DNA of 64,000 nucleotides from Microlunatus sagamiharensis (GTDB lineage: Bacteria > Actinomycetota > Actinomycetes > Propionibacteriales > Propionibacteriaceae). Each line of letters begins with the position of its first letter. Within the stretch, counting starts at the first letter, position 1. The translations under genes were made by a program, and so were the position numbers. The stretch covers positions 1,426,001-1,490,000 of the forward strand of contig NZ_LT629799.1 in NCBI RefSeq assembly GCF_900105785.1, written 5' to 3'. The notes beneath the pieces are model-generated. The model was given only the letters and a program-made list of their open reading frames with translations. It did not search any database and was not told the DNA's origin. Of the stretch, positions 40,433 through 61,730 are shown piece after piece.

Positions 40433-40436
40433 GATC

Positions 40437-41576
40437 TCAGGCGGCGCGTAGCAACCGGCCGCGGTAGGTGCCGTGGACCGTCCGGGCGGCGACGACGAGC
40501 CACGCGGCGACCAGCGCGACGTAGAACGCGATCGCAAGCCCGGCGAACAAGGTCAGCCCGGTGGCAGCGGCCAGCCCTGAGGTGCCGGTGACGACCGTGC
40601 CGACCGGGAAGGTGAACGACCACCAGGTGAGGCTGAAGGGCAGCCCGGCGCGGGCCGTGCGCACCGTGATCGCCAGGGCGAGGGCGGCCCAGAGCATCGC
40701 GAAGCCCCAGACCGGCAGCCCGTAGACGAGGCCGAAGCCCTGGAACGCAGCCCCGTACGGCGCGGGCAGCAACTCCGAGGCCGCCGCGCCGAGGTTGTGG
40801 CTCGCGGTCACGGACTGACCCAGCGGGCCGAGGACGATCCAGAGCGTCGGCACGGCGGCCGCGGCGCCCACGTGGTGCTGCACGAGCCGGTCCCAGACCA
40901 GGGTGATGACGACCAGGCTGGCGATCGCGGTCAGCCCGAACATCGCGTAGCAGAGCACGAGCAGGGTCGTCCGGGCCTCGCCGACCGGCAGGTGGGGGAG
41001 CAGCAGCGGACCGGTGGCGGCGCTGACCATCGGCGGCACCACCGGCATCAGCCAGCCGCCGAAGGCCGATGCGGGACCGACCTCGTGCTGGGTGAAGGCG
41101 CGCAGCGTGACCGCGACGGCCGACCACAGCCCGAGCAGGGTGCCCGCCGTCCAGAGCACCCCGGCGAGGACGGCGGCCACGTGCGCGCCGACGACCGGCT
41201 GCCCGACGAGCAGCGCCCCGGCCCCGACCGTCAGCAGCGCCATCGCCGGCGCACCGTAGAAGTGCGCCATGACCGGGTCGGCCAGGTGGGCCCGCGCCGC
41301 CGCGGGGTGCCGCACCCGGTGAGCCGCGGTCGCCGCCCCGACGACGACCAGCAGCAGCGCGTCCAGCACCCACACGACGCGGGCTGCGTCCAGCAGCCCG
41401 GGGACGCGGACGGGGAGCGTGGCCGCGGCGTTGGCCACGATCCCGGTGCCCATGACCGAGGCGAACCAGTTGGGCGTGACGTGGCCGAAGACCGGACGCC
41501 CCTCGAGGTCGGCGAGGAACCGGCGACGCCGCAGCGGCGGTTTGGCGGGCGCGGTGCGGGTCAGGGTCAGGGCCAT
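40437..41576 (-). CDS. TDT family transporter, copy 1
   Basis: This 379-residue membrane protein has ten helices and belongs to the tellurite-resistance/dicarboxylate (TDT) family, which includes TehA, SLAC1-type anion channels, malate permease Mae1 and sulfite exporter Ssu1. Motifs include FGHVTPNWFASVMGTGIVAN, HFYGAPAMALLTVG, SAFGGWLMPVVPPMVSAATG and WWSFTFPVGTV. It diverges from a LysR gene. A closely similar pair lies at 54.4-56.6 kb, where the neighbour is a sulfite-oxidase-like enzyme, so sulfite or another small anion is the favoured substrate. Confidence 0.88.
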   Translation of the reverse strand: MALTLTRTAPAKPPLRRRRFLADLEGRPVFGHVTPNWFASVMGTGIVANAAATLPVRVPGLLDAARVVWVLDALLLVVVGAATAAHRVRHPAAARAHLADPVMAHFYGAPAMALLTVGAGALLVGQPVVGAHVAAVLAGVLWTAGTLLGLWSAVAVTLRAFTQHEVGPASAFGGWLMPVVPPMVSAATGPLLLPHLPVGEARTTLLVLCYAMFGLTAIASLVVITLVWDRLVQHHVGAAAAVPTLWIVLGPLGQSVTASHNLGAAASELLPAPYGAAFQGFGLVYGLPVWGFAMLWAALALAITVRTARAGLPFSLTWWSFTFPVGTVVTGTSGLAAATGLTLFAGLAIAFYVALVAAWLVVAARTVHGTYRGRLLRAA

Positions 41577-41631
41577 GCCTCCAGCCCGGGCCCGCGGGCG
41601 AGGTCCCGGTAGGTGCTCCTCTCCTGTCCAT

Positions 41632-41650
41632 CCACAGGCCGCTCCTGTGG
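41632..41650. promoter_or_regulatory. LysR-type operator, copy 1
   Basis: CCACAGG, five bases, CCTGTGG forms a perfect palindrome between the divergent TDT and LysR genes. The CACAGG-N5-CCTGTG core recurs at the same place in the second pair, which supports function. Confidence 0.7.
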
Positions 41651-41657
41651 GCAGGGG

Positions 41658-41663
41658 TAGGGT
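41658..41663 (+). promoter_or_regulatory. -10 box of a leaderless lysR gene, copy 1
   Basis: TAGGGT fits TANNNT and ends six bases before GTG 41670, the spacing of leaderless actinobacterial mRNAs. The same box and spacing occur in copy 2. Confidence 0.6.
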
Positions 41664-41669
41664 CGCCCT

Positions 41670-42596
41670 GTGGCTCCGAGCGGACACCTGCCCGACCTCG
41701 AGTCGCTCGCCCTGCTCGTGGAGGTCTCGCACTGCGGCAGCATCGGGGCCGCGGCCCGAGCGGTGGGGGTGAGCCAGCAGGCCGCGTCCGAGCGTCTGGC
41801 CGGCGTCGAGCGGCAGGTGGGCGTGGCGCTGCTGCAGCGCGGCGCCTGCGGGACGCGGCTCACCGCGGCCGGCACGGTCGTCGTCGAGTGGGCCTCGCGG
41901 CTGCTCCAGGTGGCCGAGGAGGTCGACGCGTCCCTGACGGCGCTGCGCGCCGAGCGCGACCGCGAGCTGCACCTGCTGGCCAGCATGACCGTCGCCGAGC
42001 ACCTCCTGCCGCGCTGGCTCGTGGCGTTCCGGCGCTCCGAGGAGGCCGCCCGGCGGACGGCGCCCTCGGTGAGCCTGCAGGCGACGAACTCGACCGGCGT
42101 GCTGCGGGGCGTGGCGGCGGGGGAGGCCGACCTTGGCTTCGTCGAGGGGGCGGAGCGGCCCGCGCAGCTGGCCTCGGCCGAGGTCGGCCAGGACGAGCTG
42201 GTCCTCGTGGTGGCCCCGGGCGACCCGCTGGCCCGGCGTCGTACGCCGCTCGCCCCGGCCCAGGTCGCCGCGCTCGCCCTGACCTCGCGCGAGCGGGGGT
42301 CGGGGACGCGGGAGGTGGTCGAGCAGGCGCTCGCGGCGCACGGGCTGACGGCGGCGCCGGCGGCAGTCGAGGTGTCGACGTCCGCCGGTGTACGCGAGAC
42401 CGTCCGGGCCGGGGGAGCGCCGGCCTTCCTGAGCCGGCGCGCGGTCGAGGCCGACCTGCGGACGGGTGCGCTGGTGCAGGTGCGAACGAGCGGCCTGGCG
42501 CTCACCCGCACGCTACGCGCGGTCTGGGTGGGTTCGGCGCAACCGCCGGCCGGTCCGGTCCGTGACCTCCTGGCCGTGGTCGCACGCACGCCCTGA
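41670..42596 (+). CDS. LysR family regulator, copy 1
   Basis: This 308-residue regulator has an N-terminal winged HTH (SGSIG-like CGSIGAAARAVGVSQQAASE, about 22-41) and a LysR effector domain (LLASMTVAEHLLPRWLVAF, GVAAGEADLGFVEG, TSRERGSGTREVVEQAL). GTG 41670 has no Shine-Dalgarno but a -10 box directly upstream, so translation is probably leaderless. It should regulate the divergent TDT gene via the palindrome between them. It is strongly similar to the regulator at 55622. Confidence 0.92.
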   Translation: MAPSGHLPDLESLALLVEVSHCGSIGAAARAVGVSQQAASERLAGVERQVGVALLQRGACGTRLTAAGTVVVEWASRLLQVAEEVDASLTALRAERDRELHLLASMTVAEHLLPRWLVAFRRSEEAARRTAPSVSLQATNSTGVLRGVAAGEADLGFVEGAERPAQLASAEVGQDELVLVVAPGDPLARRRTPLAPAQVAALALTSRERGSGTREVVEQALAAHGLTAAPAAVEVSTSAGVRETVRAGGAPAFLSRRAVEADLRTGALVQVRTSGLALTRTLRAVWVGSAQPPAGPVRDLLAVVARTP

Positions 42597-49612: not shown

Positions 49613-49753
49613 ATGACAACGACCGGTTTCTGGATGCTCTCGCTGTCCGATGCCATCGAACTTGTCAGCGACCTGCTGCTCACGCTGACAAGTTCAGAGG
49701 TGGCGTCGATCTGGTTCCGTGACAGGCCTCGTGTCAGCGCACGGATTCTCTGA
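49613..49753 (+). CDS. Possible small ORF at island border
   Basis: This 46-residue frame (TTTGFWMLSLSDAIELVSDL at its start) overlaps an upstream small frame by ATGA. It contains the 49658-49695 inverted repeat and the first palindrome of the border array, so its protein-like look may be accidental. It has no recognisable domain. Confidence 0.25.
   Translation: MTTTGFWMLSLSDAIELVSDLLLTLTSSEVASIWFRDRPRVSARIL
49658..49695. repeat. Perfect 13-base inverted repeat
   Basis: GAACTTGTCAGCG (49658-49670) and its exact complement (49683-49695) flank a 12-base loop. The arms contain TGTCA/TGACA, the half-site of the nearby palindromes but in outward-facing order. Confidence 0.75.
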
Positions 49754-49767
49754 CAGGCAAGTTGTCA
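49720..49767. repeat. Left border array of TGACA-N7-TGTCA palindromes
   Basis: Two 17-base palindromes, TGACA GGCCTCG TGTCA (49720-49736) and TGACA GGCAAGT TGTCA (49751-49767), start 31 bases apart. The second is preceded by CGGATT. Near-copies occur at 61419-61495. They are probable protein-binding sites (recombinase, partition or replication type). Confidence 0.65.
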
Positions 49768-49965
49768 CTAGCCGGACGATCATGGTCTTAGGAGGGTCAA
49801 TTGGTGAGTGCCGCAGGATCGGCCCAACCGAAAGGCGCTCCCGGCCCGGTCTCTACGGACAGTCGGCGACGGTCACACGGCGGCTGCCCAGGCGTAGCCC
49901 GGGGGAGTGCCTCCGACCGATCGCCGGTCGGGACCATCTTCAGGATGCAGGTAGCGACAGGGTCG

Positions 49966-51132
49966 TCAGCTCACGATGTAGGTCGTGCCCTCGGCACGGA
50001 TCGCCTTCGGCACCAGCAGGCGGATTGTCCGCATCGCGATCCTGAGCTGCTCCATGGCGTCGACGACGATCGCGTGCACCGCGTCGGCATCCGCCTCTGG
50101 TTCGAGGGCCGCTCCGAAGACCGCGATCGACATGCTGCCGCTACTTACCTCGACAGCCTTCCTCCGGGGGGAACTGTGCGCGACGCTCTGCGGTCTGCGG
50201 CGGTGGTAGTCCATGCCCCGGCGCTCGTCGAGGTCTTGGAAGGCGCCACTGCGATACAGGACGCGGAGGGCCTCGACAGATCGGCTCATGAAGACGTTGG
50301 ACGACGCCCGCTCAGCCTTGCCGAGGTCTCGGACCGAGTAGCGGTTCAGCGTGACCCATGCCTTCCGATCGTCCGACAGGGGCGGGAGACCACCGCTGTC
50401 GGGCCAGGCCTTGTTGATAATCACTGCAGCCGGGCGGTTGAGCAGCAGGAGTCGCAGCACGAGGTTGGTCACGCTGTGGACGGCGCCCAAGGTGAAGTAG
50501 GCAGCCGACTCCGCCATCGCCCGCTGGACCACACGCTGCTCTACCGCATCCCGGAGGCGCTTGGTGGCAACGAGGCGCTGCACGTCGAGCTCGAAGGTCC
50601 GAGCTAGGCCGGCCTGCTCGCCGATCGCGCCCATCAGCCCGTGCAGCTCGAGGATCCGGTTCGGCTCCCGCGGTGCCTTCCCGGCCCGGGGCTTGATGGT
50701 CCTGGTCTTCCCGTTCCGCGTAGCCGACCTGCGGAACGGGATCGGGTCGAACCAGTCCTGTAGCTCCACTTCGAAGCGGGACCCGAACTCGGTGTTGCAC
50801 CTCTTGCAGGTGGTCGTCATTTCGATCCCTCCGAGCGCCTTCTGCGGCACGTGCTCTCTGGTGAGGAGGCGGGGGTCGAGGCAGATTGGGCAGACGGAGG
50901 TCCAGAATGGCCCGACGTGGGCGAAGGACATCGGAAAGATCGGCGCAACCAGGTCGAGTTGGCCCTCTCGACCGGAGGCGGGAGACGTGAAGTCGAGGGC
51001 TGTCCCGTCTGGGAGTTCAAGGTGCAGCTCCTGTAGAGCCGGGAGTCCGCGTGTGGCCGGTGCGGCTCGGCGCCCGCTCACCGCCGTGATCTCACTCGAG
51101 GTCGGAGGCCCGTCGCTGCTGACTGTCGTCAC
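49966..51132 (-). CDS. HNH-type zinc/nuclease-like protein
   Basis: This protein of about 388 residues runs from GTG 51132 (start uncertain; no good ribosome site; ATG at the MSFAHVG segment would drop about 60 residues). Near residue 70 it has CPICLDPRLLTREHVPQKAL followed by CKRCNTEFG: two CxxC pairs around a His, as in HNH endonucleases that recognise EHVPxxxLGG. The remaining helical part is unfamiliar. Codon use and GC are lower than in the surroundings, which suits an acquired gene. A role in defence or DNA mobility is possible but unproven. Confidence 0.6.
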   Translation of the reverse strand: MTTVSSDGPPTSSEITAVSGRRAAPATRGLPALQELHLELPDGTALDFTSPASGREGQLDLVAPIFPMSFAHVGPFWTSVCPICLDPRLLTREHVPQKALGGIEMTTTCKRCNTEFGSRFEVELQDWFDPIPFRRSATRNGKTRTIKPRAGKAPREPNRILELHGLMGAIGEQAGLARTFELDVQRLVATKRLRDAVEQRVVQRAMAESAAYFTLGAVHSVTNLVLRLLLLNRPAAVIINKAWPDSGGLPPLSDDRKAWVTLNRYSVRDLGKAERASSNVFMSRSVEALRVLYRSGAFQDLDERRGMDYHRRRPQSVAHSSPRRKAVEVSSGSMSIAVFGAALEPEADADAVHAIVVDAMEQLRIAMRTIRLLVPKAIRAEGTTYIVS

Positions 51133-51593
51133 CCCAGGAGTTTGGGCCGAGACACCTGATCGGTCGCCACGGCGAGCCGGTGGGCGGAGCGAGGATCTTG
51201 TGAGATTTTCCGCCCGGGGGCAGCGTAGGCGCCCTGCTTTCGATGAGAAGGGTGTTGCGCCAGCGGCCCCGGTGTTGAGCGATCCGTTCGCGAGTTCCGA
51301 TGGTGCGGAAGCCACACGGCGGTGTGCAGGGCGTCGCTCAGGCGCGACACCCTGGTGCGCGGTGACCGGTTCCACCTGCTCAGCACCTTCTCGCCCGGCT
51401 CGGGCTACACGCTGCACCTCGGCCCCAACGCCACGACCCGGGTGAACCCTCGCGCCCCCGCATCGGGCGGGCCGGTGTCCGGCCCGGTGGCTGCCTTGAG
51501 CAGTCGTAGGAGTCGCCCGTACCAAGTCCCACTCATCGGTCCCCGGCCGTCTCTCAACGGCGGGGTCCGAGGTCTCGCGTGCGGGGTGGGGTC
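51133..51593. other. Intergenic with coding-like fragment
   Basis: These 461 bases separate the HNH-type gene from the broken antiporter. A plus-strand segment around 51330-51470 reads RDTLVRGDRFHLLSTFSPGS and on to HLGPNATTRVNP, which looks like a piece of a real protein without a start or known domain. Nothing else was recognised. Confidence 0.35.
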
Positions 51594-52648
51594 TCAGGCG
51601 ATGGCGACGAGACCGGCGACGCCGAGGGCGTAGAGGACCAGCACGACCAGGGAGTCGACGCCCATGGCGAGGATGCGGCGCCGAGGCCGGAAGAGCAGAC
51701 CGAGAAGGTAGACGAGGGTGAGCAGAATGGCGAGCGCGGTCAGGTAGGTGTCGGCAGCGCTGGCCCGGGGCAGTACGGCTTGTCCGGAGATGACCGTGGC
51801 GACGAGGAAGAGCACGGGGAGGAAGGCGTTGCCGCCGAAGATGTCGCTGATGGCGAGGTTGTCGTCGCCCTGCTTGATGGACTGCAGCCCGGTGGCGATC
51901 TCGGGCAGCGACGTGGCGAGGGCGAGGACGGTGGCGCCGAACAGCACGCCGCCGAGCCCGACCTTGGTGGCGGCGGCGTCACCGGCCAGCTCGAGGACCG
52001 CGCCGGCGACCAGCGTCGCGAGGGCGGAGACGACGAACACGACGAGGGCCTTCTTGGTGCTCGCGCGGTGCTGGGGCGGGTTGCGGTGGCGGCCCTTGCT
52101 CGGCGGCGGTGAGCTGTCCGGGGCGCGCCCGTCCTCGTGCCAGGGCAGGCCGCGTCCGGCGCGGCGGACGAGCAGCAGCCCGAGCATCCAGATCACCACG
52201 ATGAGGACGCTGCCGGGGGTGAGCCGGGCGATCAGGAGTCCTTTGGGAAGCTGGGTGCCGGCGACGACGACGGTCAGGACCGCGACCACGACGGCGGCTT
52301 CGACGACGAGGGTCAACGACGCGGCCCGGTGGGTGGGGGTCGTACGCCTTGGCCGCGTCGGCCGAAGACGTCGAGGACGACGAGGACGACGGTCTGCAGG
52401 GCGATCCCGCCGAGGATGTTGCCGACCGCGACCGAGACGTCGCCGGACGCGGCGGCGCTGACGGTGATGGCGATCTCGGGCAGGTTCGTGGCGACGGCGA
52501 GGATGATCAGCCCGCCCAGGGCGCTGCCGAGGTGGAAGTGGGCATCGATGACGTCGGTGCTCTTCGACAGCCGGACGCCGGCGACCCAGACGACTACCCC
52601 GGCGGCGACGAAGATCGCGACGAGGAGCCACAGTGGTCACGAGTCCAT
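51594..52648 (-). pseudogene. Broken CaCA-type cation exchanger
   Basis: ATG 52648 gives MDS and an in-frame TGA (52639-52637), then WLLVAIFVAAGVVVWVAG, LGGLIILAVATNLPEIAITV and GNILGGIALQTVVLVVLDVF. Near 52335-52339 a five-C run must gain one base to continue into SLTLVVEAAVVVAVLTVVVA and the second half (LFGATVLALATSLPEIATGL, DIFGGNAFLPVLFLV). The two NLPEI/SLPEI alpha-repeats identify the Ca2+:cation antiporter family. It lies 125 bases after crcB on the same strand. The stop may be bypassed if the true start is the later CTG. Confidence 0.75.
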
Positions 52649-52772
52649 GGGTGCTTCACCTGTCGTAGGGGTTGTCTCGCGCCGCCGGTGCGAAGTCGGA
52701 GGTCGAAGACGCAGGTCGCTGCTGGCGGTCGCCTGCGCTGTCGGGGTGGACGAGCACGGGAAGAGTGCGCAG

Positions 52773-53159
52773 TCACCGGCCGAGCACCAGTCCGAGCGCG
52801 AGGCCGCCCGCGGCGAGACCGCCGGACACGACGACCGTGCCGAGCGCGTGCGTCGTGCCCGCGACCCAGCGTCGTTCCTCCACCAGCCGCGCCACTTCGA
52901 AACTCGCGGTGCTGAAGGTCGTGTAGCCGCCGAGCAGTCCGGTGCCGAGGACCAGCTGCCAGTGCGGGTCGACCAGGTGTCCCAGGGTGAGACCGGTGAG
53001 CAGTCCGAGCAGCAGCGACCCGGACAGGTTGATCAGGGTCGTCGGCAAGGGGTAGGCCAGGCTCAGCCGTTGCCGGAGCACGCCGTCAAGGACGAACCGG
53101 GCGGCAGCGCCGCCACCTCCGGCCACACACACAAACGCGGCGGCCAGGAGCCCGCTCAC
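52773..53159 (-). CDS. crcB: CrcB/Fluc fluoride channel, second subunit
   Basis: This 128-residue, four-helix protein has the Fluc marks: INLSGSLLLG with the pore Asn, GTGLLGGYTTFSTASFE with the phenylalanine/threonine fluoride track, and the break before helix 3b. Start GTG 53159 overlaps the stop of the other crcB gene (GTGA). Paired crcB genes usually make an antiparallel heterodimer that lets F- leave the cell. It is under the fluoride riboswitch at 54.3 kb through the upstream genes. Confidence 0.93.
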   Translation of the reverse strand: MSGLLAAAFVCVAGGGGAAARFVLDGVLRQRLSLAYPLPTTLINLSGSLLLGLLTGLTLGHLVDPHWQLVLGTGLLGGYTTFSTASFEVARLVEERRWVAGTTHALGTVVVSGGLAAGGLALGLVLGR

Positions 53160-53710
53160 GCGGCGGCCGCCTGACCGTCGTCAACTGCGGTGCGCCGCGC
53201 CCGACGGGCCAGGGTGATCCCGCCGATCGAGGCGAGCAGCCCGACGACGACCGTGACTCCGGCGTACGCGGCCGCCAGACCGAGACGCTCGTGGCCGAGC
53301 AGGGCGGTGTCGGTGGCCAGCGCGCTGTAGGTCGTGAAGCCGCCCAGACCGCCGGTACCCAACCCGAGCCTCGCGCGGCGGCTCCAGCGTTCGTCGAGCG
53401 CCGGGTCGGCGACCTTCTCGAGCAGCAGGCCGAGCAGGAACGCACCGACGACGTTGATCGCGAGCGTCACCACCGGGACCCCGCCCCAACGCGGCACCAG
53501 GTCCTCGAGCAGCAGCCGCAGGCCGGTGCCTACGGCTCCGCCCGTGGCGACGAGGGCGATGTTGCTCGGTGTGAGGTGGACCGGGCGGGCACCGCTCGCG
53601 CCGGTCTCGGTCGTGGTCTCGGCTGCTTCGGCGTCGGGGTCGAGGGGCAGCTCGGGGAACGGGTCGTCGACGGTCTTCTTCGCCGGGTCCAGCTCAGGGG
53701 TCTCGTTCAT
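53156..53710 (-). CDS. crcB: CrcB/Fluc fluoride channel with N-terminal extension
   Basis: This 184-residue protein has a Fluc domain (about 50-170) with LAINVVGAFLLG and GTGGLGGFTTYSALATD. The first 45 residues are acidic and disordered (ELPLDPDAEAAETTTE), which normal 120-130-residue Flucs lack. It overlaps both neighbours by four bases, so UspA and both channel subunits are translated as one coupled set. Function: fluoride export across the plasma membrane. Confidence 0.93.
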   Translation of the reverse strand: MNETPELDPAKKTVDDPFPELPLDPDAEAAETTTETGASGARPVHLTPSNIALVATGGAVGTGLRLLLEDLVPRWGGVPVVTLAINVVGAFLLGLLLEKVADPALDERWSRRARLGLGTGGLGGFTTYSALATDTALLGHERLGLAAAYAGVTVVVGLLASIGGITLARRARRTAVDDGQAAAA

Positions 53711-54228
53711 CGACCGCGGTCCTTCCGCGGTGCCGCGCCACCGGTCGCGGTCGGACCAATCGGCACCACGACGACCGGGCGGGACTGGTGGTGGCTCAGG
53801 TGTGCGGCCAGCGAACCGCTGAAGAAGTCGTGCATGCTCGCCCGGACCCCGCCCTCGCGGCTACCCACCACGATCATCTCGGCGCCGACGACCTCCGCCA
53901 GCCTTCCCAGCGCGGCCCCGACGTCACCGGCGAGGCTGCGGAAGGTGACCTCGACGCCGGCCTCCCGCGCTGCGGCCTGGATCCGGACGGCCAGGTCGGG
54001 GTCGAAGGTTGCGCTGTCCCAGTCGGCTCGGTCGGGGTCGATGGGCCGTGACTCCACGGAGCCGTCCGGGTGCTCCTCGACCACGGAAGCCATCGGGTCG
54101 ACCTGGGCGCACACCAGGACGGTGCCGGCACGTCGGGCGAGGGACAGGGCGACCTCGAGCACCTCAGGCGGCTGCTGCGACGTTGTCCCCAGCAGGATCG
54201 GGGATACGGGTGGGGTTTCGGTGGTCAT
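53707..54228 (-). CDS. Universal stress protein of the fluoride operon
   Basis: This 173-residue UspA-fold protein ends with the nucleotide-site motif IVVGSREGG, a nine-residue gap-like MHDFFSGSLA, then SRPVVVVPIG, close to the G-2x-G-9x-G-S/T pattern of ATP-binding Usp proteins. It is the first gene after the fluoride riboswitch and is coupled by ATGA to crcB. UspA genes are known among fluoride-riboswitch targets. It may protect or signal during fluoride stress. Confidence 0.88.
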   Translation of the reverse strand: MTTETPPVSPILLGTTSQQPPEVLEVALSLARRAGTVLVCAQVDPMASVVEEHPDGSVESRPIDPDRADWDSATFDPDLAVRIQAAAREAGVEVTFRSLAGDVGAALGRLAEVVGAEMIVVGSREGGVRASMHDFFSGSLAAHLSHHQSRPVVVVPIGPTATGGAAPRKDRGR

Positions 54229-54255
54229 CGCGCGTGCCTCCAGACGGGTGAGCGT

Positions 54256-54320
54256 CCAGGAGTCATCAGCCGTGCGGCGGTTCGAGGTCGCGACCTCCGG
54301 CGGAATCCATCGCCAGGGGA
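54256..54320 (-). ncRNA. Fluoride (crcB) riboswitch
   Basis: On the minus strand the sequence reads CTGGCGATGGATTCCGCC, a GGAGGTCGCGACCTC hairpin region, GAACCGCC, and GGCTGATGACTCCTGG. This follows the crcB-motif consensus: GGCGATGG start, GCC/AACCGCC pairing with a pseudoknot, and the invariant CTGATGACTCCT 3' end. It ends about 28 bases before ATG 54228 of the UspA-CrcB-CrcB operon, which it should switch on when F- is bound. Confidence 0.92.
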
Positions 54321-54373
54321 CAACGTACGCCTGTCGCGCCGATCACTCCGGTCGGGCCACGAGGTCCGGACGC

Positions 54374-55528
54374 TCATGCGGCCCGCAGCAGGCGTCCGCG
54401 ATAGACCCCCCGGGCCGTGCGCAGGGCGACGACGAGCCAGGCGGCGACGAGGGCGGTGTAGAAGGCGACCGCCAGCACGATGAACAGGTGGAGCCCGGTG
54501 GCTGCGGCGAGTCCGGAGGTCCCGGTGACGACGGTGCCGACGGGGAAGGTGAAGGACCACCAGGTCAGGCTGAAGGGCAGTCCCGTACGGGCGGTGCGGA
54601 TCGTGACGGCGAGGGCGAGCGCTGCCCACAGCATCGCGAAGCCCCAGACGGGGATGCCGTAGACGAGGCCGAGGGCGTGGAACGCGGTCCCGTACGGCGC
54701 AGGCAGCAGGGCGGGTGCGGTCTCGCCGAGGTTGTGGCTGGCAGTGATCGACTGGCCCAGGGGGCCGAGGACGATCCACAGGGTCGGGACCGCGGCGGCG
54801 GCGCCGACCTTGTGCTGGACGAGCCGGTTCCAGATCAGGGTGATCATGACGAGGCTGGCGATCAGGGTGAGGCCGAACATTGCGTAGCAGGCGACCAGCA
54901 GGGTGGTACGGGCCTCGCCGGCGGGCAGGTGCGGGATCAGCAGGGTGCCGGTGGCTGCGCTGACCATCGGGGGGACGACGGGCATCAGCCAGCCGCCGAA
55001 GGCGGAGTCGGGCTTGACGTCGTGGTCGGTGAAGGCCCGGTAGGGCACCGCGACCGCGGTCCACAGCCCGAGCAGCGTCCCGGCCGTCCACAGCACGGCG
55101 TCCAGGGCGAGCGCGGGGCCGTCGCCGATCACCGAGCGCCCGACGAGCATCGCGCCCGCGCCGACCGTCATCAGGGCCATGGCCGGGGCGCCGTAGAAGT
55201 GGGACATGACCGGGTTGGCCAGGTGGGCGCGGGCGCTGTCGGGGTGGCGGACCCAGTGCACCGCGGTGGCCGCGGTGACGACGACGAGGAGCACCAGGTC
55301 GAGCGCCCACACGACCCGGGCGGCCTCGAGCAGGCCCGGCACGTGGACCGGCAGGGTGGCGGCGGCGTTGGCGACGATCCCGGTCCCCATCACCGAGGCG
55401 AACCAGTTCGGGGTGATGTGGCCGAACGCGGGCTGGCCCTCGAGCTCGGCGAGGAACCCCGAGCGGTGACCGAGGCGGGTCGGGCCCGTCGGGATCGGGG
55501 AGGTGGTGCGGGTCAGCGTCAGGGCCAT
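54374..55528 (-). CDS. TDT family transporter, copy 2
   Basis: This 384-residue ten-helix TDT protein is clearly a paralogue of the one at 40437-41576, with long identical stretches (TPNWFASVMGTGIVANAAAT, AAAVPTLWIVLGPLGQS). It diverges from a LysR gene. Downstream of that LysR lie a DUF202 gene and a sulfite-oxidase-like enzyme. The TDT family contains sulfite exporter Ssu1, so an anion/sulfite efflux role is reasonable. The 3' end is 54 bases before the fluoride riboswitch. Confidence 0.88.
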   Translation of the reverse strand: MALTLTRTTSPIPTGPTRLGHRSGFLAELEGQPAFGHITPNWFASVMGTGIVANAAATLPVHVPGLLEAARVVWALDLVLLVVVTAATAVHWVRHPDSARAHLANPVMSHFYGAPAMALMTVGAGAMLVGRSVIGDGPALALDAVLWTAGTLLGLWTAVAVPYRAFTDHDVKPDSAFGGWLMPVVPPMVSAATGTLLIPHLPAGEARTTLLVACYAMFGLTLIASLVMITLIWNRLVQHKVGAAAAVPTLWIVLGPLGQSITASHNLGETAPALLPAPYGTAFHALGLVYGIPVWGFAMLWAALALAVTIRTARTGLPFSLTWWSFTFPVGTVVTGTSGLAAATGLHLFIVLAVAFYTALVAAWLVVALRTARGVYRGRLLRAA

Positions 55529-55584
55529 GACGTCAGCCTGCTCGGTCCCGGCCGGCGGCAGTAGGGTCCCGTGCCCTGCCGATG

Positions 55585-55601
55585 CACAGGTGCCGCCTGT
55601 G
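55585..55601. promoter_or_regulatory. LysR-type operator, copy 2
   Basis: CACAGG TGCCG CCTGTG: same arms and five-base spacing as the site at 41632-41650, while most other intergenic bases differ between the pairs. This conservation marks it as the regulator's binding site. Confidence 0.7.
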
Positions 55602-55609
55602 ACCGGGGG

Positions 55610-55615
55610 TAGGGT
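55610..55615 (+). promoter_or_regulatory. -10 box of a leaderless lysR gene, copy 2
   Basis: TAGGGT ends six bases before GTG 55622, exactly as in copy 1, within the conserved stretch GGGGTAGGGTCGCCCTGTGG. Confidence 0.6.
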
Positions 55616-55621
55616 CGCCCT

Positions 55622-56554
55622 GTGGCACTGAGCGGACACCTGCCCGATCTGGACTCGTTCGCCCTCCTGGTCGAGGTCGCGAGGTCGGGCAGCATCGGCG
55701 CGGCCGCCCGGGCGCACGGGGTGAGCCAGCAGTCCGCGTCGGAGCGGCTGACGACCATGGAACGTCAGGTCGGGGTGCCGCTGCTGAGCCGAGGTGCCCG
55801 CGGGACGCGCTTGACCGCGTCCGGGGCGCTGATGGTGGAGTGGGCCGCGCGGATGCTGCAGGTCGCCGAGGAGGTCGACGCCTCGATCGCCGCGCTGCGC
55901 GGCGAGCGTGACCGCGAGCTGAGGATCGTGGCGAGCATGACCGTCGCGGAGCACCTGCTGCCGCGCTGGCTGGTGGCCCTGCGCCAGCAGCAGACGCAGC
56001 CGGGGACGGACCGCGGCACGACGTCGGTGAGCCTGCGGGCCGCCAACTCCGCGGAGGTGCTGCGTGCGGTGGCGGCGGGGGAGGCCGATCTCGGTTTCGT
56101 CGAGGGCGCCGACCGCCCGCCCGGTGTGAGCTCGACCGAGATCGGGCGCGACGACCTCGTGCTGGTCGCCGCACCGTCGGACCGGCTCGCCCGGCGCCGC
56201 ACCCCGTTGACCGCGGCCCAGGTCTCCGGGCTGGCGTTGACGTCGCGGGAGCGCGGGTCCGGCACCCGCGAGGTCGTCGAGCAGGCCCTGGCCGTGCACG
56301 GGCTGACGACCGCGCCGCCGGCGGTGGAGGTCACGACCTCCACCGCGGTGCGGGAGACCGTGCGCGCCGGCGGCGCGCCCGCCTTCCTGAGTCGTCACGC
56401 GGTCGAGGCTGACCTGCGCGCCAGGACGCTCGTGCTGGTCAGGACCCGCGACCTCACCGTCAGCCGCCTGCTCCGCGCGGTGTGGGTCGGTGGCGCCGAG
56501 GCACCCGCCGGCCCCGTCCGTGACCTGCTCGCCGTCGTGGCGCGCACCCCGTGA
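55622..56554 (+). CDS. LysR family regulator, copy 2
   Basis: This 310-residue LysR protein has HTH SGSIGAAARAHGVSQQSASE and an effector domain like copy 1 (SMTVAEHLLPRWLVAL, AAGEADLGFVEGADRP, LTSRERGSGTREVVEQALAV). GTG 55622 is probably leaderless. It should control the divergent TDT gene and perhaps the downstream DUF202/sulfite-oxidase pair. Near identity of the DNA-binding helix suggests both LysR copies could bind both operators. Confidence 0.92.
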   Translation: MALSGHLPDLDSFALLVEVARSGSIGAAARAHGVSQQSASERLTTMERQVGVPLLSRGARGTRLTASGALMVEWAARMLQVAEEVDASIAALRGERDRELRIVASMTVAEHLLPRWLVALRQQQTQPGTDRGTTSVSLRAANSAEVLRAVAAGEADLGFVEGADRPPGVSSTEIGRDDLVLVAAPSDRLARRRTPLTAAQVSGLALTSRERGSGTREVVEQALAVHGLTTAPPAVEVTTSTAVRETVRAGGAPAFLSRHAVEADLRARTLVLVRTRDLTVSRLLRAVWVGGAEAPAGPVRDLLAVVARTP

Positions 56555-56627
56555 TCCCGCCCCAGGCTCGAGCCGCACGCGGTGCCACAGTGGGAGCCCC
56601 GACAGCCAGAAGGGACGGAGTGGTCCG

Positions 56628-56966
56628 GTGAGCGACGAGCACCTGGGCACGCTGACGCGTGACCTGCTGGCCAACGAGCGGACCTATCTGGCGTGGCTGC
56701 GGACGGCGGTCAGCCTGATGGTCGTCGGTCTGGCCGTGGCCCGGCTGCTCGACCCCGGGCACCTCGGGCCGCTAGTCGCCGGGGTGCTGCTCGTGCTCGT
56801 GGGTGCGGTCGGGGTGTTCTACGGGACGTGGCGGTTCCGGACGGCCGCGGCGCTGATCGAGCAGGGCGACATCGCCGGTCGTGACAGCAGCCGGGCGATG
56901 ATGATCGTGTCGACGGTCCTGGTGGTCTCCGTGGCTGCGGCGATGGTGCTGCTGATCGTCCTGTGA
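56628..56966 (+). CDS. DUF202/YidH-like membrane protein
   Basis: This 112-residue protein has the DUF202 opening RDLLANERTYLAWLRTAVSL followed by three membrane helices (about 22-38, 45-62 and 92-110). GTG 56628 has GGAG seven bases upstream. Its stop overlaps the GTG of the sulfite-oxidase-like gene (GTGA), so the two form an operon. Function is unknown. Confidence 0.88.
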   Translation: MSDEHLGTLTRDLLANERTYLAWLRTAVSLMVVGLAVARLLDPGHLGPLVAGVLLVLVGAVGVFYGTWRFRTAAALIEQGDIAGRDSSRAMMIVSTVLVVSVAAAMVLLIVL

Positions 56967-58123
56967 CCGAGGACCGCAAGAGCCGGACCACGCAGCATGA
57001 CCACGACGAGAAGAGGGATGAGCCGGTGACGAGCTGGGGCAAGCGCGACGAGATGATCGTGCACGAGCAGGACCCGTTCAACGCCGAGGCGCCACCGGGG
57101 GTGCTGGTCGAGGCGTTCGTGACGCCGGTGAGCACCTTCTACAGCCGCAACCACGGCCCGATCCCCGAGCTCGACCCGGACGCCTGGTCTTTGCGGGTCG
57201 ACGGTGCGGTGTCGCGGCCGCTGACGCTGACCCTGGCTCAGCTGCGGGCCTTCGAGGCCGTGACCGTGACGGCGACCCTGCAGTGCGCCGGCAACCGCCG
57301 GGCGGACCTGATCAAGGTGAGCGACATCCCGGGTGAGGACCCCTGGGGCCGAGGGGCGACGTCGACCGCCGAGTGGACCGGAGCTCGCCTCAGCGACGTC
57401 CTCGCCGCGGCCGGTCTCGACCCGGCGGCGCGTGCCGGTCACGTGGCGTTCGACGCACCGGACGTGTCCCAGCTCGCGGACCCACCGCAGCCGTACGGCG
57501 GGTCGGTACCGCTGGGCAAGGCCCAGAGTCCGGAAGTGCTCCTCGCGTGGGCGATGAACAGCGAACCGCTCACGCAGGCCCACGGCGCCCCGGTCCGGGT
57601 CGTCGTCCCCGGCTACATCGGCGCGCGCAGCGTGAAGTGGGTCCGACGCGTCACCGTCCAGTCCGAGCCGTCCGACAACTACTTCCAGGCCACGGCCTAC
57701 CGCATCGTGCCGCCCGACGCCGACCCGAAGCAGGCCGGTCCCGGCAACGGCATCTCCCTCGGCCCGGTCGTCGTGAACGCCGCGATCCTCGCTCCCTCCG
57801 ACGGCAGCCGGCGACCGGCCGGCCGCACCGAGGTCTCGGGCTACGCCTACGCGGGCGGAGACCGGACGGTCGCGCGGGTCGACGTGTCAACCGACGGCGG
57901 CAGCACCTGGGTGCAGGCCGACCTCGGCCGCCGCACCGACCGCTGGGCCTGGACGATGTGGAGCATCAGCGTCGACCTGGCCAGCGGCCCGCACACCCTC
58001 GTCGTCCGGGCCTGGGACGACGCCGGCGCCCAGCAGCCCGAGTCAGCCACCTCGCTGTGGAACCCGAAGGGGTACGCCAACACCTCGTGGGACCGCGTCG
58101 AGATCGTCGTCGACGCGGCGTGA
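56963..58123 (+). CDS. Sulfite-oxidase-family molybdopterin enzyme
   Basis: This 386-residue protein has the molybdopterin domain with catalytic Cys108 in LQCAGNRR, and GAPVRVVVPGYIGARSVKW; the C-terminal Ig-like dimer domain (about 275-385) contains RVDVSTDGGSTWVQADL. This is sulfite oxidase/YedY-related, without heme or Tat signal, so it is cytoplasmic as predicted here. It may oxidise sulfite to sulfate. Close position to a TDT transporter and LysR suggests a sulfite detoxification module. Confidence 0.88.
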   Translation: MTEDRKSRTTQHDHDEKRDEPVTSWGKRDEMIVHEQDPFNAEAPPGVLVEAFVTPVSTFYSRNHGPIPELDPDAWSLRVDGAVSRPLTLTLAQLRAFEAVTVTATLQCAGNRRADLIKVSDIPGEDPWGRGATSTAEWTGARLSDVLAAAGLDPAARAGHVAFDAPDVSQLADPPQPYGGSVPLGKAQSPEVLLAWAMNSEPLTQAHGAPVRVVVPGYIGARSVKWVRRVTVQSEPSDNYFQATAYRIVPPDADPKQAGPGNGISLGPVVVNAAILAPSDGSRRPAGRTEVSGYAYAGGDRTVARVDVSTDGGSTWVQADLGRRTDRWAWTMWSISVDLASGPHTLVVRAWDDAGAQQPESATSLWNPKGYANTSWDRVEIVVDAA

Positions 58124-58129
58124 CACGTC

Positions 58130-58759
58130 TCAGCCGCCGAGGAGCCCGTTCATCTCGGTGATCTCGGCCTTCTGGGTCGTGACGATGCTCTGGGCGAGCT
58201 TCTTCGCGTCCGGGTTCTCGCCCTGGGCGAGCTCGGTCTGAGCCATGGTCACGGCACCCTGGTGGTGCTTGATCATGCCCGTCAGGTAGAGCCGGGCCGC
58301 GTCGTCGCCGCTGGCGTGGTCGAGGGCGTCCATGTCGGCCTGGCTCATCAGGCCGTCACCGGCGCCCATCCCGCCCATGCCCCCCATCGAGGACGGGCTG
58401 GGGTCCTGCCCCCAGCCGGCGAGCCAGCCGCTCATCTGGACGATCTGGGGTGCCTGCTCGGCCTTGATCCGGGTGGCCAGTGCGGTGACCTTCGCGTCCA
58501 CGCCCTGCTTGCTCAACAGCATGTCGCTCATCGCGACGGCCTGCGTGTGGTGCGGGATCATCATCGTCGCGAACTGGACGTCCGCGTCGACGTGTTGGCC
58601 GACGGCGGGCGTACCCGCACCGGCGGGGGAAGCGGGCGCGCTCGTCGACGCGGTGGGAGCGGTGCTGGTGCCGCCCGGCGGGGTGGCGCCGCTCGAGCAG
58701 CCCGCGAGGACCAGGGCGGCCAGGACACCTGCGAGGGCTAGCTGCGTGCGAGACGTCAT
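58130..58759 (-). CDS. DUF305 lipoprotein
   Basis: This 209-residue protein has a lipoprotein signal (LAALVLAGCSSG) and Ser/Thr/Pro linker, then a four-helix DUF305 domain with MMIPHHTQAVAMSDM and MIKHHQGAVTMAQTEL. The paired His are likely metal ligands. DUF305 proteins commonly accompany copper-handling genes. It is coupled by ATGA to the upstream permease. Confidence 0.9.
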   Translation of the reverse strand: MTSRTQLALAGVLAALVLAGCSSGATPPGGTSTAPTASTSAPASPAGAGTPAVGQHVDADVQFATMMIPHHTQAVAMSDMLLSKQGVDAKVTALATRIKAEQAPQIVQMSGWLAGWGQDPSPSSMGGMGGMGAGDGLMSQADMDALDHASGDDAARLYLTGMIKHHQGAVTMAQTELAQGENPDAKKLAQSIVTTQKAEITEMNGLLGG

Positions 58760-60000
58760 GAGGAGCCTTCTCTTGCGGTCGGAGTCGAGTGGGAGCCGCG
58801 ATCGTGGGCACTGTGGTCGTGGGAGCCGTGGTCGTGGTCGCCCATGTCGTCAGGGTCGCCGCCCATCGCGCGCAGCATGGCGGGCCCGCCCGTCCGGACG
58901 AACCGGACGACCAGGAGGGCGGCGAGCAGCAGGAAGGCGATGTTGAGGTAGGTCGTGTAGTTCCACGACAGGTGCGTCGTCTCGACCCGCGCTGTCCGTT
59001 GGACGGGGACGAGTCCGGCGGAGCCGAAGAGGATCTCGACGACGTACCCGGCCACGACGCTGGCCATGTAGAGGACGCCCGCGAGCAGGGCAGCCGTCTT
59101 CAGGCCGTAGTACTTCCGGTAGATGACCAGCACGGGCAGGATCAGCAGGTCGGCGAAGATGAAGCTGACGACGCCGCCGAAGCTGATGCCGCCGTTCCAC
59201 AGCACCGCCGCGAGCGGGACGTTGCCGATCGAGCAGACGAAGCTCAGCACGGCGACGACCGGCCCGACGATCGGACCCCAGACCTTCGCGAGGAACGGGT
59301 GGTCGACGAGGAAGAACGCCTGCCAGAAGCTGTCCGGCACCCACGCAGCGACCGCGCCAGCGATCAGCAGACCGATGACGATGTCGCGCAGGACGGCCGC
59401 CCACTCCATCACGAAGATGTGGCTGATCGAGGTGATGCCCTGGGCGGAGGTGAGTCGGCGGACCAGCGACCCGTCGCCCTGGACGCTCATGTCCATCGCC
59501 GCGTGACCCTCCATCGAACCGGCCAGCCCGCGGTCGGCCTGCCGATGCGCGGCCTCGAGCAGGCGCGGTCGGAGGAAGAACCGGAGCAGCAGCGCGACCA
59601 CGATGATCATGACCGGTCCGCCGACGAACTCGGCCGCGGCGAACTCCCAGCCCATAAGCAGGATCAAGATGATGCCGAGCTCGACGACCAGGTTGGTCGA
59701 CGCGATCTGGAACGCGATCGCCGCGGCGAAGCTCGCACCCTTACGGAACAGTGAACGGGCCAATGCCACGGCTGCATACGAGCAGGACGACGACGCCGCG
59801 CCCAGCCCGGTGGCGACGGCCAGCGACCGAGGGCCGTTCCCGCCCAGTAGCCGGGTGACCGACTCCCGCCGGACGACGGCTTGGACGGCGGCGGACAAGG
59901 TGAAGCCGAGGATCAGTGCCCAGGTGATCTCCCAGGTCATCGAGCCGGTCCGCTCGAGCGCGCGCAGGATCTGGTGCCCGGCGGCTGCGAGCAGGGTCAT
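58756..60000 (-). CDS. DUF318-type permease with His-rich tail
   Basis: This 414-residue permease (COG0701 type, related to ArsP and similar efflux proteins) has two bundles of four to five helices, with GLGAASSSCSYAAVALARSL and SFVCSIGNVPLAAVLWNGG as the paired motifs; the cysteines may bind metal or metalloid. A cytoplasmic loop holds Met/His residues (MEGHAAMDMSVQG), and the C-terminus is GDHDHGSHDHSAHDRGSH. ATGA overlaps occur on both sides. It likely exports a metal, arsenical or related compound. Confidence 0.85.
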   Translation of the reverse strand: MTLLAAAGHQILRALERTGSMTWEITWALILGFTLSAAVQAVVRRESVTRLLGGNGPRSLAVATGLGAASSSCSYAAVALARSLFRKGASFAAAIAFQIASTNLVVELGIILILLMGWEFAAAEFVGGPVMIIVVALLLRFFLRPRLLEAAHRQADRGLAGSMEGHAAMDMSVQGDGSLVRRLTSAQGITSISHIFVMEWAAVLRDIVIGLLIAGAVAAWVPDSFWQAFFLVDHPFLAKVWGPIVGPVVAVLSFVCSIGNVPLAAVLWNGGISFGGVVSFIFADLLILPVLVIYRKYYGLKTAALLAGVLYMASVVAGYVVEILFGSAGLVPVQRTARVETTHLSWNYTTYLNIAFLLLAALLVVRFVRTGGPAMLRAMGGDPDDMGDHDHGSHDHSAHDRGSHSTPTAREGSS

Positions 60001-60413
60001 CGCTCGTCCTCCTCAGCCGCGCGGGTCATCGCGACCAGCTCGCGGAAGCAGTGGTGGCGCAACGGCTCCGGGAACCCTGGCGCGAGCCGGTAGAACACGA
60101 CCCGCCCCTGCTTGCGGGTGGCGACCAGGCCCGCCGTCCGCAGGATCTTGAGGGCGTAGCCGACGGAGTCCTCCGTCGACTCCAGGGCGAGGGCGAGGTC
60201 GCCGACGCACAGCTCCTCGACCTCGTCGAGCGCGTACAGGATCCGGGACCGGACGGGATCGGCCAGCAGGGACAGCAGCGCAGCAAGCCGCCCGGCGTCG
60301 TCAGCGGACAACCCGCGTGCCCGTGCGTGGGCGACCCGTTCCGGGTCGACCGGATGGTCATGGGGCTCCGCCAAGCCGGTAGGGCCGGTCTCTGCACCTC
60401 GGGGCTGCGTCAT
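59997..60413 (-). CDS. ArsR/SmtB family regulator
   Basis: This 138-residue winged-helix protein has DPVRSRILYALDEVEELCVGDLALAL, with helix-turn-helix TEDSVGYALKILRTAGLVAT and wing KQGRVVFYRL. The usual CVCDL metal motif is CVGDL here, leaving one Cys, and His residues near the C-terminus (RHHCF) may contribute. ATG 60413 has GAGGTGG nine bases upstream. It heads the permease/DUF305 operon and should repress it until metal binds. Confidence 0.88.
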   Translation of the reverse strand: MTQPRGAETGPTGLAEPHDHPVDPERVAHARARGLSADDAGRLAALLSLLADPVRSRILYALDEVEELCVGDLALALESTEDSVGYALKILRTAGLVATRKQGRVVFYRLAPGFPEPLRHHCFRELVAMTRAAEEDER

Positions 60414-60706
60414 ATCGCACCACCTCTCGTCTCGCTCACTCAGAAGATACCCGCTTACCCGTGCGACCACACGGATTTGCGGGAGCCAAGGGTCTCGTCG
60501 CGGCGCTACCTTCTGGCCGCTACCAGAAGGGGGTCTTTGCCCCACCCGTTCCCCTACCGCTACTGAGAATGGGTGGGTCGGCTGCTGCCGATCACTCCTC
60601 GCGGTCCGGTCAACACGTACTGGGCCGACCGTTCAGTATTCGTACGAGCGTGATGCTGCGGTCGCCGAAGGTCGTTCAGCTGAGGTCTTGCAGTCGGAGG
60701 ATGACG
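60414..60706. other. Divergent intergenic with inverted repeats
   Basis: These 293 bases hold CCTTCTGG-N6-CCAGAAGG (60509-60530) and CCCACCC/GGGTGGG arms around 60540-60580. Either could be an operator or terminator. Promoters for the ArsR operon and the DUF2314-like gene must lie here. Confidence 0.4.
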
Positions 60707-61321
60707 ATGTGCGAGGAACTGCTCGGAGTCAAGGGTGCGCTCGGCAGCCTCGGCCTAGCACTGTTGATCTTCGGACTCGCCCCCGGGATGGTCCTGTCGC
60801 TGATCCTCTGCCTGCTGCCTCGCGACGACCCTCGACGGCAAGAGCTCCACGCCGAACTGTACGCGGTGCCGCGCTGGGAGCGACCCTTCTGGGTCTTCGA
60901 CCAGCTCGAGGTCGCTCTTCGTCAGGGCGTGTTCCCGGAGGTCTCCTGGTTCTTCGAGTTCTGGGGTGGCCGGCTGATCTGGTCCCGGTCGAAGATCCAA
61001 TCCGGGCTAGCCATCCACAAGGAGCACCCGGACACGTTCTGGGTACCTGACGCGCAGACGAAGGCCAATCTCGGACCGGGCGACCTGGTGAAGTTGTCGT
61101 GGGCGATCACCAGGCCGCGTAAAGGTGGGCCTGGAGGAGAGCGGATGTGGGTCAAGATCACGTACCGCGAAGGCGAGAACTTCGTTGGCGCCCTCGACAA
61201 CTGGCCGATCTACGTCTACCTCCGCCCCGACGAGACGGTCCGGTTTCACGCCGACGACATCATCGACTACGTCCTCTTCGACGAGTATGGGGAGCAGGAC
61301 GATGGGGTAGAGGCGGCCTGA
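60707..61321 (+). CDS. Membrane-anchored DUF2314-like protein
   Basis: This 204-residue protein has one N-terminal helix (LGSLGLALLIFGLAPGMVLS) and a C-terminal domain with DLVKLSWAI, ERMWVKITYREGENFVGALD, NWPIYVYL and FHADDIIDYVLFD, the layout of DUF2314 domains. ATG 60707 sits six bases after GGAGG; ATG 60701 overlaps that site. GC content is lower than average, as in the HNH-type gene at the other edge of the island. Function is unknown; DUF2314 proteins are often linked to toxin immunity-like or accessory loci. Confidence 0.65.
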   Translation: MCEELLGVKGALGSLGLALLIFGLAPGMVLSLILCLLPRDDPRRQELHAELYAVPRWERPFWVFDQLEVALRQGVFPEVSWFFEFWGGRLIWSRSKIQSGLAIHKEHPDTFWVPDAQTKANLGPGDLVKLSWAITRPRKGGPGGERMWVKITYREGENFVGALDNWPIYVYLRPDETVRFHADDIIDYVLFDEYGEQDDGVEAA

Positions 61322-61418
61322 GCCTGGTGCGGGCCGCACCATCGCAGCCCGCACCCACGAGGGTCTTCAGGGGCATCAGAGGTACCGCCTCGATCAGATG
61401 GGTGTGCCCATCCGCGAC

Positions 61419-61495
61419 TGACAGGTTGAGTGGCAAAAATCGGCTGGTTGCGGATTACTGACACGTACCTGGCAAAACTGACAGGTTGCTTGTCA
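61419..61495. repeat. Right border array of TGACA palindromes
   Basis: Three sites: TGACA GGTTGAG TGGCA (61419-61435), TGACA CGTACC TGGCA (61459-61474, preceded by CGGATT) and TGACA GGTTGCT TGTCA (61479-61495). They match the left array at 49720-49767 in half-sites, spacing and the CGGATT prefix. Confidence 0.65.
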
Positions 61496-61730
61496 ACGGA
61501 CACTCGCAGGAGCGCTCGCGCCTTCATCCTCGGATCAGATGTCATAATGCTGCTTATCGGACAGGCCTCGAAGTTCCAGAACAAGCATCGGCTGGACGCT
61601 GTGCACTCTTGCACACCTCCAACTCGATGACGCCGGCGAAGCCCCTCGGGCTGTACGTGAAGGCGCCCAGCTTCGGCGACACCGCTGACTGAGGCGACGT
61701 GTTCGCCGAGGGCGCGTACTGCGGGCTCAG

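Follow-up and report, generated by a model that had tools for sequence, protein, structure and literature searches.

Tn7-like transposons insert near attachment sites, and those tabled include glmS, tRNA genes, comM, yhiN and parE; dif is absent from the part of that table examined (PMC11406308). For the actinobacterial Tn7-like clade (clade 2, Benler et al. 2021), the sections consulted give no experimentally characterised member (PMC8649781). Targeting of site-specific recombination sites has precedents in two other groups: the Tn5053/Tn402 family, described in the excerpts used as res site hunters with one TniQ (PMC11406308), and the ISAjo2-type elements of the IS1202 family, which the passages used name dif site hunters and contrast with Tn7 (PMC10132070). 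Here, an accessory island from Microlunatus sagamiharensis was analysed in a window of 64,000 nucleotides (contig NZ_LT629799.1, positions 1,426,001 to 1,490,000; coordinates below are those of the window unless stated otherwise). The island is very probably a non-autonomous member of an actinobacterial Tn7-like group (TnsA-TnsB-TnsC-TniQ) that uses dif as its attachment site; dif is where XerC and XerD act at the replication terminus and where the cell separates its two copies of the chromosome.

The palindrome arrays flanking the island mark both ends of a Tn7-like transposon, 11,859 bp long (49644-61502). The element starts with TGTCCGAT at 49644 and ends with AACGGACA at 61502. A boundary search placed the 5-bp target-site duplication CTCGC on both sides (left copy 49639..49643, right copy 61503..61507, both + strand). 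These boundaries lie slightly outside those given in a first-pass annotation of the same DNA. CTCGC-TGTC occurs at three further places far left in the window; the TGTCCG terminus and the homology to related ends are found at 49644 only. The left end (LE; 49644..49799, + strand) consists of the TGTCCGAT terminus and repeats. Homology to two ends in another genome of the same genus (G014) starts here (83%), and the likeness of the G014 sequence to the left array begins only at about 49643, going rightwards. An 11-bp inverted repeat, AACTTGTCAGC-N14-GCTGACAAGTT, was read from the sequence within LE (49659..49694, + strand) and is also present in the two closest G014 ends, with one base changed in one of them. 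The right end (RE; 61419..61502, + strand) carries TGACA-N7-TGGCA, TGACA-N6-TGGCA and TGACA-N7-TGTCA followed by the AACGGACA terminus, and was found homologous to a G014 RE by alignment. Judged by sequence, the inverted repeat and the palindrome pair (31-bp spacing) in LE, together with the three TGACA-N6/7-TGNCA sites in RE, form the layout of Tn7-like ends, with 5'-TGT...ACA-3' inverted termini and several internal putative transposase-binding repeats on each side.

Exact TGACA-N7-TGTCA palindromes were located by pattern search of window and genome at 49720-49736, 49751-49767 and 61479-61495. The first two (49720..49736 and 49751..49767, no strand assigned) are putative TnsB-type sites, and their 31-bp spacing is also seen in G014 ends. 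Variants start at 49651, 61419 and 61459, the last with N6. The two palindromes at 49720-49767 and three, including variants, at 61419-61495 had been noticed in the first-pass annotation, and their coordinates were reproduced, as were CGGATT directly before one site at each end and the lower GC content of the ends (0.63-0.64 in the three 750-base stretches containing both ends, 0.68-0.76 in the stretches between). With up to one mismatch, 5 matches were obtained in the window versus 0.57 expected from shuffles, and 5 was reached in 0/100 shuffles. A genome-wide search, as the annotation had proposed, returned the exact pattern three times per strand, which for a palindrome means three places in 4,405,185 bases, all within both arrays; the pattern is not spread at random over the chromosome. 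A reversed control pattern gave 0 matches in the whole genome, and the two counts together argue against chance. TGACA-N7-TGTCA was also present in 82 of 147 family genomes, mostly scattered among the matches listed, so the motif by itself is not a family marker; copies paired at 31 bp inside a conserved end are more telling than the motif alone.

The right end abuts the chromosomal dif site, which the annotation had not seen. The 28-bp site AGATGTCATAA-TGCTGC-TTATCGGACAG (61537..61564, + strand) contains the 24-bp core TGTCATAATGCTGCTTATCGGACA (61540-61563) with the layout of dif: an arm ending in CATAA, six bases and a TTAT-arm. From the RE terminus, the distance is 37 bp to the core and 34 bp to the 28-bp site. 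The site is at genome position 1,487,540 and dnaA at 3,679,092, which places dif about 11 kb from the antipode of dnaA. It is the sole match in its genome. At up to 3 mismatches the core was found once each in 37/57 relatives and not in the other 20, and at up to 2 mismatches once each in 104/147 family genomes and not in the other 43. The XerC arm was assigned by likeness to the C-spacer-D notation in the passages used of PMC10132070. In G017, of the same genus, the same dsbA-like left neighbour is followed by dif, with neither array nor transposon end.

Two further features were seen in dif flanks, among them those of the 104 family dif sites (L111-L209, 99 loci, and five others). A GATTCATCTGATG-like motif was seen near the XerC arm, left of dif, in L161, L163, L172, L181, G213, G258, L214, L216, L218 and L227, and also at a dif-like site in L280. 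At up to 2 mismatches it was present at 4/104 family dif sites, with 0 matches in 229,789 bases further upstream and 1 in 253,185 bases downstream; it is possibly an accessory Xer or FtsK element. In the 104 family flanks, GGGGA was clustered 20-60 bp on the XerC side of dif (43 of 89 matches in 300 bp, with 12 in 300 bp on the other side) and is possibly an FtsK-orienting sequence.

No transposase gene is present in the window copy, and its genome has 0 matches to Mu-transpos_C (PF09299; 35 genomes searched, 4 with a match) and 0 to TnsA_like_Actin (NF033179; 391 genomes searched, 28 with a match, 15 of them over cut-off). The element is therefore non-autonomous. TnsB DDE transposase and TnsC ATPase genes, lacking here, are both encoded by a related element in G014. 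This element is 119,286 bp long (G014:C1:2083555-2202840), runs from TGTCCGTT to AGGACA, is flanked by the duplication CCTCC and has its RE 38 bp from the G014 dif. Directly inside this RE are genes for TnsA (TnsA_like_Actin, 2.9e-64), TnsB (Mu-transpos_C, 1.7e-8) and TnsC/TniB (TniB, 7.1e-16), and a TniQ-like gene. Among solved structures, a profile built from seven TnsB proteins matched Tn6677 TnsB (1.4e-25), chains named TnsB such as 7svw (4.8e-22) and Tn7 TnsB (7.7e-9). A TnsD/TniQ selector gene is likewise missing from the window copy; relatives have a candidate for it in the expected place, with weak Pfam TniQ matches. The inverted TGTCC/GGACA termini, the 5-bp duplication and the homologous ends that enclose TnsABC-TniQ in G014 all point to a Tn7-like transposon.

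The G014 element holds further transposon ends, some nested or orphan (loci L025-L037). An element of about 18.7 kb flanked by GCCGC, probably nested, was read by eye, and one more left end is found far away at 1,463,427. The reading of these repeated ends as an integron- or shufflon-like cassette array was rejected, since their appearance is that of transposon ends that are nested or orphan. No resolvase was found among five G014 proteins scanned.

The frequency of such elements at dif was determined in two sets of loci. The first comprised 30 loci (L070-L099) around TnsA_like_Actin matches, from 34 matches listed. dif lies beside tnsA in 6/30, all in one relative orientation (G213, G258, G097, G014, G295 and G093), with RE-to-dif gaps of 54, 53, 39, 38, 38 and 37 bp, respectively; the window gap, also read from sequence, is 37 bp. 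Conversely, tnsA-like sequence was found within 2.5 kb at 5 of the 104 family dif sites, on the XerC side in G014 and G097 and on the XerD side in G117 and, partially, G062; G019 has a 35-residue fragment. The window dif flank has no tnsA-like sequence within 2.5 kb. Plain counts of GGACA by distance from dif in the 104 flanks were too low to be informative by themselves.

For the second set, named genomes were scanned with a TnsB profile and the best 80 of 137 relatives were taken, ten of which are cut off within 1,250 bp upstream, leaving 70 usable loci. In 24/70, dif is positioned just beyond the end on the tnsA side, 700-1900 bp upstream of TnsB. These 24 include two loose cases at 1.6-1.8 kb (L211, L287), which may not be direct neighbours of dif. 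The strict pattern gave 27 dif-like sites in 933,126 bases of TnsB loci; the 3 outside the 700-1900 bp interval (L235, L248, L280) likewise lie upstream, the one in L248 being adjoined by an array with a GGACA end. Exact ATAA-N6-TTAT occurred 0 times in 495,845 control bases downstream. The two sets overlap in four genomes (L236/G258, L245/G213, L225/G097 and L228/G093). Four of the 24 dif-side loci also yielded a left end whose duplication matches: L236 (Nocardioides lacusdianchii; 6,799 bp, duplication GTGGA, RE 53 bp from dif), L245 (7,015 bp, GCAGT, 54 bp), L253 (5,612 bp, ATCAT, 51 bp) and L260 (Arthrobacter hankyongi; 4,967 bp, GCCGT, 52 bp). The elements of L236 and L260 are complete and compact. 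L222 has one doubtful left-end candidate. In the six elements with both ends found, RE is thus 37, 38, 51, 52, 53 or 54 bp from dif; the range is wider elsewhere. In a phylogenetic tree of TnsB, the first large group has 24 rows and a support of only 55; 17 of the rows are dif-associated, 6 are cut off and 1, a broken plasmid copy, lacks dif.

The same layout was seen on the Arthrobacter conjugative plasmid pJ349-116 (L290, NC_019339.1 72811-86628), in which, at about 5044-5110 of the locus, a TnsABC end and a dif-like site lie 39 bp (by eye) apart; this may be a transfer route for the elements. With ends within tens of bp of dif across relatives and this plasmid layout, some actinobacterial TnsABC-TniQ transposons therefore appear to use dif as attachment site. 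Among the plasmid records listed, a TnsB relative lies within 7 kb of the record end in 14/25, nine of the 14 being Streptomyces. In the linear NBC_01005 (L291), tnsABC adjoins a helicase gene near the record end, an arrangement that hints at telomere association. The window LE (49644-50000) gave no match in the plasmid collection.

Several results weigh against dif targeting by a mobile Tn7-like element. The window copy has no transposase, hence its mobility is historical. The TniQ-like gene inside the G014 RE matches Pfam TniQ weakly (E 0.055), and Pfam matches were obtained in 6/14 members at E up to 0.1 (best 2.1e-4). The protein, with a predicted model of mean pLDDT 87.8, gave no significant fold match: Foldseek returned none at E <=0.001 (relevant hit 7n6i_A, E 2.4), and a sequence search of solved structures gave one match at E 0.75. 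Both sides of dif are used (19 XerC-side and 5 XerD-side of the 24 loci), for which dif targeting gives no reason. The RE-dif distance is not strictly fixed. An end was read by script at 30-60 bp in 18/24 loci, some of these readings being doubtful, and no end was read in the other 6; distances determined by eye were 49 bp in L217 and 72 bp in L272. In 20/24 loci no convincing left end was found in the sequence stretch examined, which may be too short. No strict dif was found upstream in 46/70 TnsB loci, 33 of which are from Streptomyces, Micromonosporaceae or Nocardiaceae; a looser ATAA-N6-TTAT-like site in five of the 46 was not counted as dif. Many rows without dif on the TnsB tree are Streptomyces, whose chromosomes are linear. 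On this tree 12 changes of the dif label are needed, of which starred branches force 9, against a mean of 22.6 after shuffling; the dif-associated elements therefore form several branches and not one clean clade. Placement of G014 on the tree is weakly supported.

Proximity to dif could be inherited if a single ancestral insertion had been kept by descent, as the ends and the part of the cargo shared by window and G014 might suggest. The six elements with both ends found carry six different duplications, insertions are found on both sides of dif (19 and 5 loci), the hosts belong to several actinobacterial families, a conjugative plasmid with a dif-like site has the same layout, and the RE-dif interval has no alignable sequence across hosts. 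Inheritance in place of targeting is accordingly considered very unlikely. A TnsE-like preference for the terminus or for replicating DNA, with dif proximity as a by-product, would fit the location of dif at the terminus and the steering of Tn7 into replicating DNA by TnsE, as given in the sections consulted of PMC8649781. It is highly improbable in view of RE-dif distances of tens of bp, not kilobases, and of the plasmid dif-like site used at 39 bp.

Integrative elements at dif (IMEX) integrate by Xer recombination, with neither 5-bp duplication nor TGTCC ends. In such a case, a circle with a dif-like site would have been recombined into dif by XerC/XerD, and the palindromes would be accessory sites. 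The element does adjoin dif, no integrase is linked to it, and the genome has three Phage_integrase (tyrosine recombinase) matches, two over cut-off, about the number expected for XerC and XerD. After Xer integration, however, a site would be expected at each end, and the genome has one dif match at up to 3 mismatches; TGTCC/GGACA inverted ends with 5-bp duplications are marks of transposition, and relatives such as G014 carry TnsABC beside the same type of end. Xer-mediated integration was dropped on these grounds and is extremely unlikely. A tyrosine-integrase island, which would have a linked integrase and direct-repeat att sites, was also rejected: all three Phage_integrase matches are far from the element. 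The absence of integrase, transposase and tRNA at the island, reported by the first-pass annotation, holds (no tRNA at 44-64 kb). Its reading also stands in that the island is accessory, is flanked by arrays of what are likely protein-binding sites and has no enzyme of its own. As to the enzyme, the annotation had thought of an unlinked recombinase, a partition protein or iteron-type replication; the inverted ends, the 5-bp duplication and the homologous ends around TnsABC-TniQ in G014 point instead to a transposase. An integrated plasmid whose partition, iteron or operator sites these would be, as the 31-bp spacing of palindromes might recall, can practically be dismissed, with arrays exactly at the ends of a duplication-flanked unit and no Rep, Par or recombinase family in the 13 cargo open reading frames (ORFs; Pfam search).

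Compared with the described systems, the element shares with Tn7 and Tn7-like transposons, including actinobacterial clade 2 as candidate affiliation, multiple TnsB-type sites, 5'-TGT..ACA termini, the 5-bp duplication and insertion close to an attachment site without disrupting it; relatives add TnsABC and a TniQ-like gene. It differs in dif as attachment site and in the loss of all tns genes from the window copy. Targeting of a site-specific recombination site is shared with Tn5053/Tn402, but these use res sites, resolve cointegrates with their own recombinase and have no TnsA, whereas the elements here target dif and relatives encode TnsA; membership was rejected on target and TnsA. With the IS1202 family, as described in the passages used of PMC10132070, they share a TnsB-like transposase, TGT/ACA ends, a 5-bp duplication and insertion beside dif or pdif on the XerC side. 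Those are 1.5-kb single-gene insertion sequences located 5 bp from the XerC site, in contrast to multi-gene TnsABC elements, some with large cargo, usually at 37-54 bp. Membership was rejected for an element of 11.9 kb located 37 bp from the dif core and 34 bp from the 28-bp site. No TnsABC element at dif was found reported in the open-access papers searched, covered by titles, abstract openings and passages (subscription journals and preprints not covered), and PMC10293859 contains none of the terms dif site, XerC and XerD.

For the dif-targeting Tn7-like group, the following mechanism is proposed. TnsB would bind the TGACA-N7-TGNCA repeats and pair the ends, and TnsA and TnsB would excise the element. 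The small TniQ may read dif itself, or Xer proteins bound to dif, and then load TnsC, which would direct insertion usually about 37-54 bp outside dif and leave dif intact. The window copy probably lost its tns genes; it keeps both ends, carries the fluoride, sulfite and metal genes, and could move only with related TnsABCQ supplied in trans. Most circular bacterial chromosomes have a dif, which has to remain intact, and this makes it a safe and broadly conserved landing site. If the proposal is true, dif is a new entry among Tn7 attachment sites, heteromeric transposition is linked to the machinery of chromosome segregation, and the accessory islands that actinobacteria carry next to dif are in part explained. 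It also raises a testable question: does TniQ read DNA, or the recombinase bound to it? A broader scheme is tentative, and we lean slightly against it: a widespread actinobacterial TnsABC-TniQ group might find a near-universal attachment site in Xer/dif, reside stably at chromosomal dif and transfer by way of dif-like sites on plasmids. In this scheme the small TniQ would sense XerC/XerD-occupied dif and so tie transposition to chromosome-dimer resolution.

The cargo was annotated by Pfam search. From the left, the - strand encodes an HNH_5 protein (49966..51525, 2e-7; longest ORF, true start probably downstream), a Na/Ca exchanger-like protein (51594..52640; longest ORF, domain in the C-terminal half), two CrcB fluoride channels (52773..53159 and 53156..53710), a universal stress protein (53707..54228) and a SLAC1/TDT transporter (54374..55540). 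A fluoride riboswitch (RF01734; 54250..54323, - strand) lies upstream of the usp-crcB-crcB genes. On the + strand follow a LysR regulator (55622..56554), DUF202 (56643..56966) and a sulfite-oxidase-like molybdopterin oxidoreductase (56963..58123); then, on the - strand, a DUF305 protein (58130..58759), an ArsP_1 permease (58756..60000) and an ArsR-type regulator (59997..60416); and finally, on the + strand, an ORF with a weak DUF2314 match only (60461..61321, longest ORF). The 8.9-kb core (51594-60492) is present at full length only in G014 (91%, one place inside the 119-kb element) among 19 other genomes of the genus; the other 18 do not have it at full length, and the matches listed there are partial. 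The block is not conserved in all relatives, in agreement with the accessory appearance of these genes in the first-pass annotation. A 77% copy of the TDT/LysR stretch of the island is located left of it at 40436-42596 (G000:C1:1466436-1468596).

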